From Halorientalis sp. LT38 (GTDB taxonomy: Archaea > Halobacteriota > Halobacteria > Halobacteriales > Haloarculaceae): 64,000 nt of DNA. Position numbers and translations under genes: made by a program. How positions within the stretch are numbered: position 1 is the stretch's first letter; the number at the start of each line of letters is the position of its first letter. The stretch is taken from contig NZ_JAYEZN010000001.1 of assembly GCF_037031225.1 (NCBI RefSeq), forward strand, positions 3,038,001 to 3,102,000, given 5' to 3'. The notes under the pieces are model-generated. The model was not told the DNA's origin, searched no databases, and was given only the letters and a program-made list of their open reading frames with translations. Shown here one piece after another: positions 31,053 to 37,055 of the stretch.

Positions 31053-31067
31053 GTGGGATGAATGGAA

Positions 31068-31376
31068 TGGACCTCGGGATTGCCCGGCGTTCGGACGCGG
31101 GTAATCCCGCGTGCCTCCTCCACCCCGCGACCCTACGAGCGACGGGTGTTCGGGGATTCGCTGCTCGCTTCCGCGCCTGACGGGGTGTCCCCGACTAACC
31201 GCACCGGATCGCCCCTGCAGGCGAGCCAGTGGGGACCGCCGCCCCCGCAGGACGAGGCTTCGACGTTGGCTTGCGGGGCCCGCGTCCGTCTGACTGGACG
31301 CCCCCGAGCTTCGGTCCCCGCTAAAGACCATATCGCGGGTGGAGAGCAGGGCCTAACTGCCCGACCTAGTCCAGCC
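31068..31376 (-). ncRNA. signal recognition particle RNA (7S RNA)
   Basis: The reverse strand reads as an archaeal SRP RNA of about 308 nt, the scaffold of the particle that targets nascent membrane and secreted proteins. Helix 8, the SRP54 site, is at 31161-31183 and reads GGCGCGGAAGCGAGCAGC, with the GGAA tetraloop and the AGCAG asymmetric loop. The 5' (GGCTGGAC near 31369-31376) and 3' (GTCCA near 31068-31072) ends can pair to close helix 1. The GGGCAGTTAGGCCC block near the 5' end fits the Alu domain. The ends are accurate to a few bases only. Confidence 0.9.
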
Positions 31377-34555: not shown

Positions 34556-34630
34556 GGGCGCTTAGCTCAGTCTGGACAGAGTACTTGGCTTCGGACCAAG
34601 CTGTCGCGGGTTCAAATCCTGCAGCGCCCA
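34556..34630 (+). tRNA. tRNA-Arg (anticodon UCG)
   Basis: A complete 75-nt cloverleaf: acceptor stem GGGCGCT/AGCGCCC, D-stem GCTC/GAGT, anticodon stem CTTGG/CCAAG around loop CTTCGGA (anticodon TCG, reading CGA), variable CTGTC, T-stem GCGGG/CCTGC around TTCAAAT, discriminator A. CCA is not encoded and no intron is seen. A second copy of its 3' tail lies about 190 bp downstream, described separately. Confidence 0.93.
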
Positions 34631-34822
34631 TGTTCTCGCCGCGAGCCATCACGGCGAGCGGCGAAACTGGCCGCGAAGGATTTGAACGAGGGGAGACGTG
34701 GTTCGAAAATCGCACGCTGCGATTTTCGTCATCACGAAAGAGCGCTTTGCGCTCTTTCGAACGACAGCGCCGAGCCTTGCGAGGCGACCGTCTCCACGTA
34801 GTTCACAATCCTGCAGCGCCCA
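34631..34822 (+). repeat. structured module after tRNA-Arg with inverted and direct copies of its T-arm
   Basis: No gene fits the gap 34631-34984. From left to right: a hairpin CTCGCCG/CGGCGAG (34634-34658); an inverted T-arm fragment AGGATTTGAAC (34677-34687; its reverse complement equals tRNA-Arg bases in GTTCAAATCCT); GGAGACG (34692-34698), which pairs with CGTCTCC (34789-34795); between them two perfect 11-bp hairpins with 3-nt loops (34704-34728 and 34735-34759); then a direct copy of the tRNA tail, GTTCACAATCC and CTGCAGCGCCCAT, at 34801-34822, 17 bases of it identical to the tRNA. Inverted and direct T-arm copies can pair, so the whole is one large folded element. Confidence 0.75.
34785..34820 (+). 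repeat. left copy of a 36-bp direct repeat (att-like)
   Basis: This 36-bp segment matches 37020-37055 at 30 of 36 positions, including an unbroken 14-bp run CGTAGTTCACAATC. Its right half is the second copy of the tRNA-Arg tail. The two copies bound a 2.2-kb segment with a K+ channel and a Na+/Ca2+ exchanger gene. Confidence 0.7.
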
Positions 34823-34984
34823 TACAACTGCGGTGCGATAATCGCCCGATAGCGCAGCGTTCATCGATCGAACGGGCACAGTTCGTTCGAATCCAGCGAG
34901 AGACGGATCGACCAGAGGTCCGATGCGCCACGAGCATCGCCGCCCGCCGACTGGAAAGACTTCCGAAGCGTGGAAAAGACTGCC

Positions 34985-35845
34985 TTACGTCCGGGAGTCG
35001 AGTTCCTGATAGATGACGTGGCCGCAGGCCTTGCAGTGCGACGCGTCCGGATCGTGATGTGACAGCCCGCAGTGTGGACAGGTGACGTTGACTTTCTCCT
35101 TGGACGCCCACTCCCTGACGAATTTACTCGCCTGCCGTGGGATGACGATGATCGCGGCCAGGATCGCGCCGACCGTCACCCACCGACCTGCCGTCGTGAC
35201 GGGGATGATATCGCCAAACCCCGTCGTCGAGAGCGTGATGACGGCGTAGTAGAAGGCGTCTCCGAACGTCGAGACGTCGGGATTCGACGCGGTTTCGACG
35301 CTGTAGAATACCGCGGCGGAGACGAACAGGAGGACCAGAATCGTCAACAGTAGCTTCGTGGCACGCAGCGTGTTGTCCGAGATCGTTCCGAAGAAAAACT
35401 CCGCATCGTCCGTAAAGCGGTAGAACCGCAGGACGCGGACGATCCGGATCGCACGCAGAAACCCGATCTGGAGCGCGCCGAGGGACACCGGAAGTGCGAA
35501 CACGAAGAGCGTCGGCAAGATCGCGAGCAGATCGACCATCGTGTACCCGTTGAAAAATTCCGAGATTCGATCGGGAGCGCCGTACAGTCGCAATACGTAT
35601 TCCACGGAGAAAATGAAGGCGATCCCGACCTCGAGACGCCAGAGCAGGGATCGGAACTCGGCGCCGATCGGGTACGTTTCGACGATGAAGATGCCGACGA
35701 ACACCAGATTGAGCCCCAGCAAGGCGACGTCGATGATCTTCCCGGGGATCGTCCTGTGATCCAGGAGGTAGAACTCGACTAACTCACGGCGGTTCCGTTC
35801 GTCCGAAACGGATGCGTCGCGGCCCATATCCCGCATTGGAGCCAC
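34985..35845 (-). CDS. voltage-gated-type potassium channel with C-terminal zinc ribbon
   Basis: A 286-residue six-helix channel. Helix S4 carries regularly spaced arginines (R131, R134, R137, R140, R143 in FLRAIRIVRVLRFYRF), as in voltage sensors. The selectivity filter is TLSTTGFGD (204-212), with TTGFGD where most channels have TVGYGD. The C-terminus has a zinc ribbon with C256, C259, C271 and C274 (CPHCG, CKACG), replacing the usual RCK domain. The start could also be the ATG at 35836 or 35827. It lies inside the repeat-bounded island and is divergent from the exchanger gene. Confidence 0.85.
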   Translation of the reverse strand: MAPMRDMGRDASVSDERNRRELVEFYLLDHRTIPGKIIDVALLGLNLVFVGIFIVETYPIGAEFRSLLWRLEVGIAFIFSVEYVLRLYGAPDRISEFFNGYTMVDLLAILPTLFVFALPVSLGALQIGFLRAIRIVRVLRFYRFTDDAEFFFGTISDNTLRATKLLLTILVLLFVSAAVFYSVETASNPDVSTFGDAFYYAVITLSTTGFGDIIPVTTAGRWVTVGAILAAIIVIPRQASKFVREWASKEKVNVTCPHCGLSHHDPDASHCKACGHVIYQELDSRT

Positions 35846-35992: not shown

Positions 35993-37000
35993 ATGCCGGG
36001 CCTCCTCGTGTCCCTCGCCCTCGCCGTCGTCGCGACGCTGGTCATCTGGAAGGGCAGCGGATACTTCGAGCAGGCCGCGGAGCGGCTCAGCAAGTACTAC
36101 GGCTTGCCGGTCGCCGTCCACGGGGCCATCGTCGTGGCCGTCGGATCGAGTTTCCCGGAAATCAGTTCGATCGTCATCAGTACGGTCGTCCACGGCGACT
36201 TCTCCCTCGGGGTCGGCGCCATCGTCGGGAGCGCGATCTTCAACCTCCTCGTCATTCCGGCCCTCTCTGCCTTCTCGAGCGAGGACCTGGAAGCGACGCG
36301 GGACATCATCCACAAGGACGCGCAGTTCTACGTCATCAGCGTCCTCGTGCTATTCATCGTGTTCGCGCTCGGTGCGACGTACGTCCCGGGGGGCACGAAC
36401 AGCGCGGCGATCCTGACGCCGGCGCTGGTCGTCCTCCCGCTCGCAACCTACGGAATTTACGTCTTCCTCCATCAGCAGGACGCCAGCGATCACGTGGCCA
36501 AGGACGCTCCCGACGTCCGCCCGCTGAAAGAGTGGGGAACGCTCGCGGTGGCGCTGCTGGTCATCGCCGTCGGCGTCGAAGGGATCGTCCGCGCTGCCCT
36601 GTCGCTCGGCGATATTTTCGGGACACCGACCTTCCTGTGGGGCCTGACCGTGATCGCGGCCGGAACGAGCCTGCCCGACGCCTTCGTCAGCGTTCGGGCC
36701 GCCAAGAACGACGACAGCGTCACCAGTCTCACGAACGTCCTCGGGAGCAACACGTTCAATCTCCTGGTCGCCATCCCCGTCGGCGTCCTCCTGGCGGGCT
36801 CGGCGACCATCAACTTCCTCGTCGCCATCCCGACGATGGGATTCCTCGCGTTCGCGACGCTCGTCTTCATCGTCTTCACCCGGACCGACCTCGAAATCAC
36901 CGACCTCGAAGCGGCCGGGTTCGTCGGACTCTATGTGCTGTTTCTCCTCTGGATGACCCTCGAATCGATCGGCGTCATCGAGACTGTCAAGGGTATCTGA
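35993..37000 (+). CDS. sodium/calcium exchanger family antiporter
   Basis: A 335-residue cation antiporter of the CaCA family with about ten membrane helices. The two alpha repeats are visible: GSSFPEISSIVIS with GAIVGSAIFN (about residues 50-90) and GTSLPDAFVSV with NVLGSNTFN (about 225-255), with the ion-binding acidic and polar residues. It would exchange Na+ for Ca2+ or a similar cation. Together with the channel next to it, an ion-homeostasis pair is formed within the island. Confidence 0.9.
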   Translation: MPGLLVSLALAVVATLVIWKGSGYFEQAAERLSKYYGLPVAVHGAIVVAVGSSFPEISSIVISTVVHGDFSLGVGAIVGSAIFNLLVIPALSAFSSEDLEATRDIIHKDAQFYVISVLVLFIVFALGATYVPGGTNSAAILTPALVVLPLATYGIYVFLHQQDASDHVAKDAPDVRPLKEWGTLAVALLVIAVGVEGIVRAALSLGDIFGTPTFLWGLTVIAAGTSLPDAFVSVRAAKNDDSVTSLTNVLGSNTFNLLVAIPVGVLLAGSATINFLVAIPTMGFLAFATLVFIVFTRTDLEITDLEAAGFVGLYVLFLLWMTLESIGVIETVKGI

Positions 37001-37019
37001 TTGGGGCGAATCAACGGGC

Positions 37020-37055
37020 CGACCGCCTCCTCGTAGTTCACAATCTTGTAGGGTC
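37020..37055 (+). repeat. right copy of the 36-bp direct repeat (att-like)
   Basis: It matches 34785-34820 at 30 of 36 positions (differences at positions 7, 12, 27, 30, 33 and 35 of the repeat). It lies 20 bp past the exchanger stop and marks the right end of the two-gene segment. Confidence 0.7.

Follow-up and report, generated by a model that had tools for sequence, protein, structure and literature searches.

The folded segment that directly follows the tRNA-Arg(TCG) gene in the window (the whole 64,000-nucleotide stretch of the Halorientalis sp. LT38 genome that was analyzed) is, with a probability that we put at roughly 60%, one unit of a tRNA-linked repeat array, a haloarchaeal counterpart of the TLR/RtT units of Escherichia coli that spreads by recombination and is co-transcribed with the tRNA as a 3' trailer. 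Such units are folded, strand specific, and adapted to the tRNA that they follow, and close relatives differ in how many they have and in what order.

The unit behind tRNA-Arg(TCG)

The host tRNA gene lies at positions 34556-34630 on the plus strand (ARAGORN; Rfam RF00005), and all parts of the unit are on the same strand. The first of them is a spacer hairpin, H1 (34637-34663, CGCCGC-GA-GCC-ATCAC-GGC-GA-GCGGCG), with a tandem-GA motif that occupies the same relative position in 44 of the 111 units compared below. An inverted copy of the T-arm follows at 34677-34687 (AGGATTTGAAC), seen in the sequence and recovered by the own-tail/T-arm search, and then comes the 5' strand of an inner stem (GGAGACG, 34692-34698), complementary to the 3' strand CGTCTCC at 34789-34795, which was placed from sequence and fold. 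Just ahead of this 3' strand stands the inner hairpin, H2 (34768-34786, CGCC-GA-GC-CTT-GC-GA-GGCG), whose tandem-GA motif recurs at the same position in 51 of the 111 units. The unit ends with a direct copy of tRNA positions 53-73 at 34801-34822 (GTTCACAATCCTGCAGCGCCCA); the tail match covers 34801-34823, and in it 17 bases in a row are identical to tRNA-Arg and one C is inserted in the T-loop. This copy scored 37 in the own-tail search, compared with 16 for the best match upstream of tRNA-Arg, and the segment as a whole folded at -98.5 kcal/mol, compared with a shuffle mean of -68.3 (z, -7.0). No Rfam family covered the window segment downstream of tRNA-Arg. Every coordinate given by a sequence-only reading, for the tRNA and the inverted copy of its T-arm, the two heptamers that pair, the triloop hairpins, and the copied tail, was confirmed, and its proposal of a tail-derived folded unit was borne out; such units recur behind many tRNAs in many haloarchaea. 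Elsewhere in the window, the minus strand carries an archaeal SRP RNA gene (31065-31376; RF01857, 197 bits).

The two perfect triloop hairpins (34704-34728 and 34735-34759, plus strand, joined by the linker TCATCA) had been read as part of the module, and here the comparison with relatives led to a different result. In the orthologous tRNA-Arg unit of the congener G003, GGAGACG joins CAGCGCC directly, so that the 66 extra bases at this junction in the window (34699-34764, plus strand) are matched by a precise empty site. The inserted element has the form GTGGTTCGA-hairpin-TCATCA-hairpin-TCGAACGAC, with conserved flanks and with variable stems that show compensatory changes. It stands at the same insertion point in a tRNA-Thr unit of the same genome and in a tRNA-Leu unit of G039, and it is dispersed in relatives, with many copies distant from tRNAs. 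Copies were located at L014, L016-L020, L022-L024, L056, and L057, sometimes inside other hairpin elements. The 66-bp hairpin pair is a separate, dispersed, BIME-like element and no part of the unit proper; it alone shows the dispersed short paired palindromes without a transposase that mark the BIME/PATE type. Haloarchaea are known to carry small palindromic elements, PATE and SMR, some of which insert within other palindromic elements (PMC3119063). Like these and like bacterial REP/BIME, the hairpin pair is short, palindromic, dispersed, and nested in a palindromic element, a likeness that holds by description and not sequence by sequence, with the stems of the pair varying and its flanks conserved.

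Occurrence in the genome, in the class, and beyond

To survey the genome (3.58 Mb), we searched 600 bp on either side of its 42 detected tRNA genes, with thresholds of a local score of at least 24 for an own-tail copy and at least 18 for an inverted T-arm. Direct own-tail copies were found downstream of 21 of the 42 genes and upstream of none, and inverted T-arm copies lay behind 19 genes and ahead of 1. Tandem pairs of copies occurred behind tRNA-Glu(CTC), tRNA-Ser(CGA), tRNA-Gly(GCC), and others. The layout of the tRNA-Arg unit, which the sequence-only reading had proposed to seek at other tRNA genes, was present a second time behind tRNA-Thr(TGT), with a hairpin region 82% identical to that of the tRNA-Arg unit and with an inverted and a direct T-arm of its own.

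Across the class, we used a palindrome signature (GATTYGAAC, 15 to 45 bases, GTTCRAATC) with a spacing that neighboring real tRNAs cannot attain. It was found in 182 of 242 Halobacteria genomes, representing 67 of 74 genera, while the reversed pattern, used as a control, was found in none of the 242; elsewhere in the same phylum, 2 of 236 genomes carried the signature. A tRNA was nearby on the proper side at 25 of the first 30 palindrome loci. A stricter unit pattern matched 57 places in 84,980 species genomes, all in records with haloarchaeal or halophilic-archaeal titles; 49 of these had a tRNA upstream on the same strand, and the other 8 mostly had an undetected or displaced tRNA tail. The units are thus widespread in haloarchaea, and the sequence-only reading, which had allowed that the segment might be unique to this genome, is strengthened on that point. 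Occupancy at a given tRNA is patchy, however: a unit was present within 700 bp of only 3 of 30 sampled tRNA-Arg(TCG) genes, which argues against the units being essential. A class-wide pattern written for the Arg(TCG) unit was over-strict and matched 3 of the 242 genomes.

The palindrome signature also matched 70 viral contigs. None of the high-GC or tRNA-bearing contigs inspected among them had the haloarchaeal layout; they proved to hold phage tRNA clusters or unrelated hairpins, and virus-borne units were rejected on this basis. As a separate observation, a long palindrome, GATTTGAACC...CCTCTGG...CCAGAGG...GGTTCAAATC, recurred in the viral contigs at L209, L218, L224, L237, L240, L251, and L257; it belongs to several GC-rich proviruses, is T-arm-like at both ends, and mostly has no tRNA nearby. 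A plasmid of Haloarcula halophila (NZ_CP119561.1, L259) carries a cluster of more than 20 tRNAs with one unit behind tRNA-Asn, close to genes for a TROVE-domain protein and a type B DNA polymerase. In Haloferax gibbonsii, one unit stands behind tRNA-Leu(TAA) (L274).

Common anatomy and strand specificity of the units

We compared 111 units from behind 77 tRNA genes, with a median length of 122 nucleotides. In order, their parts are a spacer hairpin (H1), the host T-arm in inverted form, the inner hairpin (H2), and, copied directly, the last 21 bases of the tRNA (positions 53-73). In 79 gap-free copies, identity to the host over these positions was 0.86 to 1.00, while it was 0.72 one base before them and about 0.3 to 0.6 just beyond, reaching chance level 1 to 2 bases outside; 58 of 113 direct copies were perfect. 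The inverted arm also follows the host: its mean score against its own tRNA was 21.4, compared with 17.1 ± 0.27 for permuted tRNAs (z, 16). The inverted match, which the sequence-only reading had conceded might be at chance level, therefore exceeds chance, and the contention that the module is more than a simple att duplication holds, with an inverted arm that is specific to its own tRNA.

In 83 of 110 units, the fold of the tRNA strand was more stable than that of the complement (83:27; mean difference, -3.5 kcal/mol; P = 3e-8), and there was no such bias in control flanks of unit-less tRNAs or in distal sequence. A tandem-GA hairpin motif (C-GA-RC-loop-GY-GA-G) was found in the sense orientation in 69 units and in the antisense orientation in 7, with about 5 expected from shuffles. 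It occupies two fixed places, H1 and H2, where the stems vary and show compensatory pair changes; covariation was counted around the GA motif because a joint alignment of all hairpin classes was poor. G-U pairs were slightly biased in the opposite direction (205 sense and 251 antisense), so that G-U was rejected as an RNA signature and the sense bias was attributed to the tandem G-A pairs. Both RNA and single-stranded DNA can form stable tandem G-A pairs and GNA loops, and the sense bias is therefore compatible with either. Runs of at least four T residues after the tRNA, as expected of terminators, were about equally frequent with and without units.

A strand-specific conserved structure with compensatory changes could mean that the units are purely regulatory RNA under strong selection and that arrays differ through ordinary tandem duplication and loss. 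The E. coli RtT/RttR units are annotated as RNA, and rrA, rrB, and rrF have been reported to be transcribed and processed (PMC8144298), as that explanation would have it. However, near-identical hairpins behind different tRNAs, each with adapted arms, require exchange between loci, and the patchy occupancy does not fit either; we regard regulation by itself as a quite improbable account.

Arrays and exchange of units between loci

The units occur in arrays of one to five, and their order and number vary between congeners. The arrays at tRNA-Ser(TGA) and tRNA-Gly(GCC) are orthologous in the congeners G044 and G059 and draw on the same unit types, but the two congeners differ in the order and number of these. 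At tRNA-Ser, one congener has two units and the other five, among them a block of two units that is duplicated. In G059, inner hairpins of close similarity (gaacccaggaaaccgagc...) stand behind tRNA-Ser, tRNA-Pro, and tRNA-Lys, with arms that match each unit's own tRNA. In total, 14 pairs of hairpins that follow different tRNA tails were at least 85% identical; their spacers were mostly dissimilar, and shuffled sets gave none. Units have thus been shuffled both within and between tRNA loci. One hairpin core, CAGCGCCGAGCnnnGCGAGGCGACCGTCT, was also seen away from tRNAs, at L058 (approximately 1288-1316) and L059 (approximately 1291-1319), and the non-tRNA copies of this core in G036 and G052 lie inside a longer multi-hairpin element that contains GGTGGCGCGTGCC.

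This modularity, with units reshuffled between arrays and T-arms adapted to each tRNA, is what integron-like cassettes would show if tRNA-anchored arrays were built from folded, single-stranded, attC-like sites by a tyrosine recombinase acting in trans and cutting at G-TTC of the T-loop. The imperfect palindromes with conserved one-strand asymmetries (an inserted C, unequal internal loops) point in the same direction. The genome encodes tyrosine recombinases, but none was tied to the arrays, and against such cassettes stands the lack of cargo genes in the units; furthermore, the E. coli TLRs have the same layout without a known recombinase, and homologous recombination could shuffle units too. 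An integron-like origin thus seems rather improbable to us.

Integrative elements at the same landing sites

Integrative elements with cores of about 13 to 17 bp stand between tRNA-Arg and the unit in G003, G025, and G038. A tail end and attachment arm of an integrative element is present in the window at 34812-34878 (plus strand), as identified by comparison with G071, G006, and G123; in these three genomes the arm sits directly on the tRNA-Arg tail, whereas in the window it sits on the tail copy of the unit. At 37014-37051 (plus strand), 2.2 kb from tRNA-Arg, lies what is left of a second unit, its right half in decayed form (GACCGCCTCCTCGTAGTTCACAATCTTGTAGGGTCACAT; 88% identity over 32 bases; E value of 3e-4 genome-wide). 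An ion-channel gene (34985-35845, minus strand) and a Na/Ca exchanger gene (35993-37000, plus strand) lie between the element arm and this decayed half, and the two may be cargo of the integrative element.

Other insertions were noted at tRNA genes. In the same genome (contig C1), a probable integrated element of about 21 kb with a tail-type core and an integrase gene is located at tRNA-Pro(TGG) (approximately 2184884-2206100), and another of 15.5 kb, also with a tail-type core and an integrase gene, is located at tRNA-Ala(GGC) (approximately 564200-579909), with a further tail copy 87 bp on (L102-L104 for both). On contig C1 of G025, two segments of about 1 kb are stacked at tRNA-Arg (L107 and L108), each with an end GAGCCAGCG or GGGCCAGCG that immediately precedes CCTGCAGCGCCCAT.

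The units could themselves be decayed attachment sites, that is, gene-less scars of tRNA-targeting elements with a T-loop tyrosine integrase, with the tail copies representing attR. The copied segment begins in the T-loop and ends with the discriminator, which suits T-loop integrases, real elements with tail-type cores accrete beside units at tRNA-Arg, tRNA-Pro, and tRNA-Ala of this genome or its relatives, and the element arm in the window sits on a unit's tail copy. However, the cores of the sampled elements are only about 13 to 17 bp, and at the five loci analyzed (tRNA-Arg in G003, G025, and G038, tRNA-Pro, and tRNA-Ala), the element ends had neither an inverted arm nor tandem-GA hairpins. 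Scars would also hardly be expected to have common two-hairpin cores, a strand-specific structure, and an inverted arm that tracks the tRNA, and we therefore consider this origin unlikely.

Accretion of the casposon or CRISPR kind would cast the tRNA as a leader, the tails as repeats, and the units as spacers, with a Cas1-type integrase adding units at tRNA 3' ends and a 21-bp target duplication. Casposons also target tRNA 3' ends. The tRNA specificity of the inverted arm speaks against this proposal, and of the 33 genomes searched for Cas1 (PF01867), that of LT38 and 22 more lacked it, although several of these have units. With PF01867 absent, a casposon or Cas1 origin is largely refuted for this genome, and in general we give it hardly any credence.

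Proposed mechanism and significance

For the preferred reading, a recombining, co-transcribed tRNA-linked array, we propose that recombination at their common T-arm and tail sequences adds, removes, and swaps units, and that the tRNA gene would be left intact at each event because its tail (53-73) is duplicated. Candidates for this step are homologous recombination and a tyrosine recombinase that targets tRNA genes and acts in trans. By analogy with RtT in E. coli, the units would be co-transcribed with the tRNA as 3' trailer RNA. In such a read-through transcript, the inverted arm could pair with the copied tail and fold this decoy away, and the hidden tail would then be no rival to the real one for the 5' strands of the acceptor and T-stems of the tRNA. 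An arm that sequesters the tail would explain both the match between arm and host tRNA and the retention of structure on the tRNA strand.

A TLR layout that accompanies roughly half of an archaeon's tRNA genes and extends throughout its class turns an enterobacterial oddity into a phenomenon of two domains. The rules that emerge are sharp and testable: a copy of positions 53-73, a host-specific arm, and tandem-GA hairpins on one strand. Additionally, hundreds of natural arrays permit comparisons that are beyond the reach of the 22 E. coli copies. The findings also bear on the upkeep of tRNA genes, since the extra tail may act as a decoy when the tRNA folds and is processed, and it serves integrative elements as a landing site. 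Two separate origins of the layout would imply a common mechanism at tRNA ends; a single origin would make it very old.

Comparison with known systems

In archaea, tyrosine-integrase attachment sites in tRNA genes likewise leave direct tail repeats at tRNA 3' ends (PMC8371274), but the integrase cores seen here are shorter than the tail copies of the units and are accompanied by neither the inverted arm nor the hairpins.

Integron attC sites are strand-specific imperfect hairpins between modular units and resemble the haloarchaeal units in this respect. The latter differ in that no integrase was tied to them, in having no cargo genes, and in having tails that are specific to the host tRNA. That haloarchaea possess a tRNA-anchored integron-like system, with a T-loop-reading recombinase and T-arm sites, of which the E. 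coli TLRs would be remnants, is an idea to which we assign little likelihood.

The closest counterparts are the TLRs of E. coli, on record since 1978, whose 22 copies are spread over ten loci (PMC8144298, citing Egan & Landy 1978 and Rudd 1999). What marks a TLR is that its 3' end is identical to that of the tRNA or rRNA upstream; no function could be named for TLRs when that study began, an early functional claim for the tyrT unit having been retracted, and it is the rRNA-linked TLRs whose transcription and processing were reported (PMC8144298). We found no description of TLR-type units in archaea in the open-access literature.

When the E. coli K-12 tyrV/T, proK, and arg units were analyzed in the same way, all had the tail copy. 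The copies in tyrV/T and proK ran from about A58 to CCA, and their inverted arms fit their own tRNAs (GGGGAAGGAT for Tyr and GAGGAT for Pro), while the arms of the arg units were partial. A CGAGCG..GCGAG tandem-GA hairpin was present in the tyrV/T and proK units, and in tyrV the motif occurred on the sense strand only. The 5S-linked TLR rrfB had a tail copy in the same test, but an inverted arm was not found. RtT RNA (Rfam RF00391)/RttR has the same unit layout as the haloarchaeal units. The RF00391 covariance model detected four RtT units at E. coli tyrT/V as a positive control but gave no match at 14 haloarchaeal loci at E values up to 5, and common descent with the E. coli TLRs is therefore unsupported. 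On the sequences compared, the haloarchaeal units would be described as the same kind as TLRs by layout and not as members of a homologous family.

The units of both groups lie behind tRNA genes, end with the 3' end of the host tRNA, number one to five per locus, and have cores common to different tRNAs. In these respects the haloarchaeal units have the traits by which TLRs are recognized, namely a position downstream of a tRNA, tail identity (21 bp versus approximately 18 to 19 bp), and shared cores. The groups differ in the span of the copy, which in E. coli runs from about A58 and includes the encoded CCA (18 to 19 bp) and in haloarchaea covers positions 53-73 without CCA (21 bp), and in their cores, with one type in the E. 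coli units examined and several in haloarchaea. Unlike E. coli TLRs, the haloarchaeal units are class-wide and, in the genome analyzed, accompany roughly half of all tRNA genes. Overall, the description that suits them best is that of TLR-type units in an archaeal and greatly expanded form.
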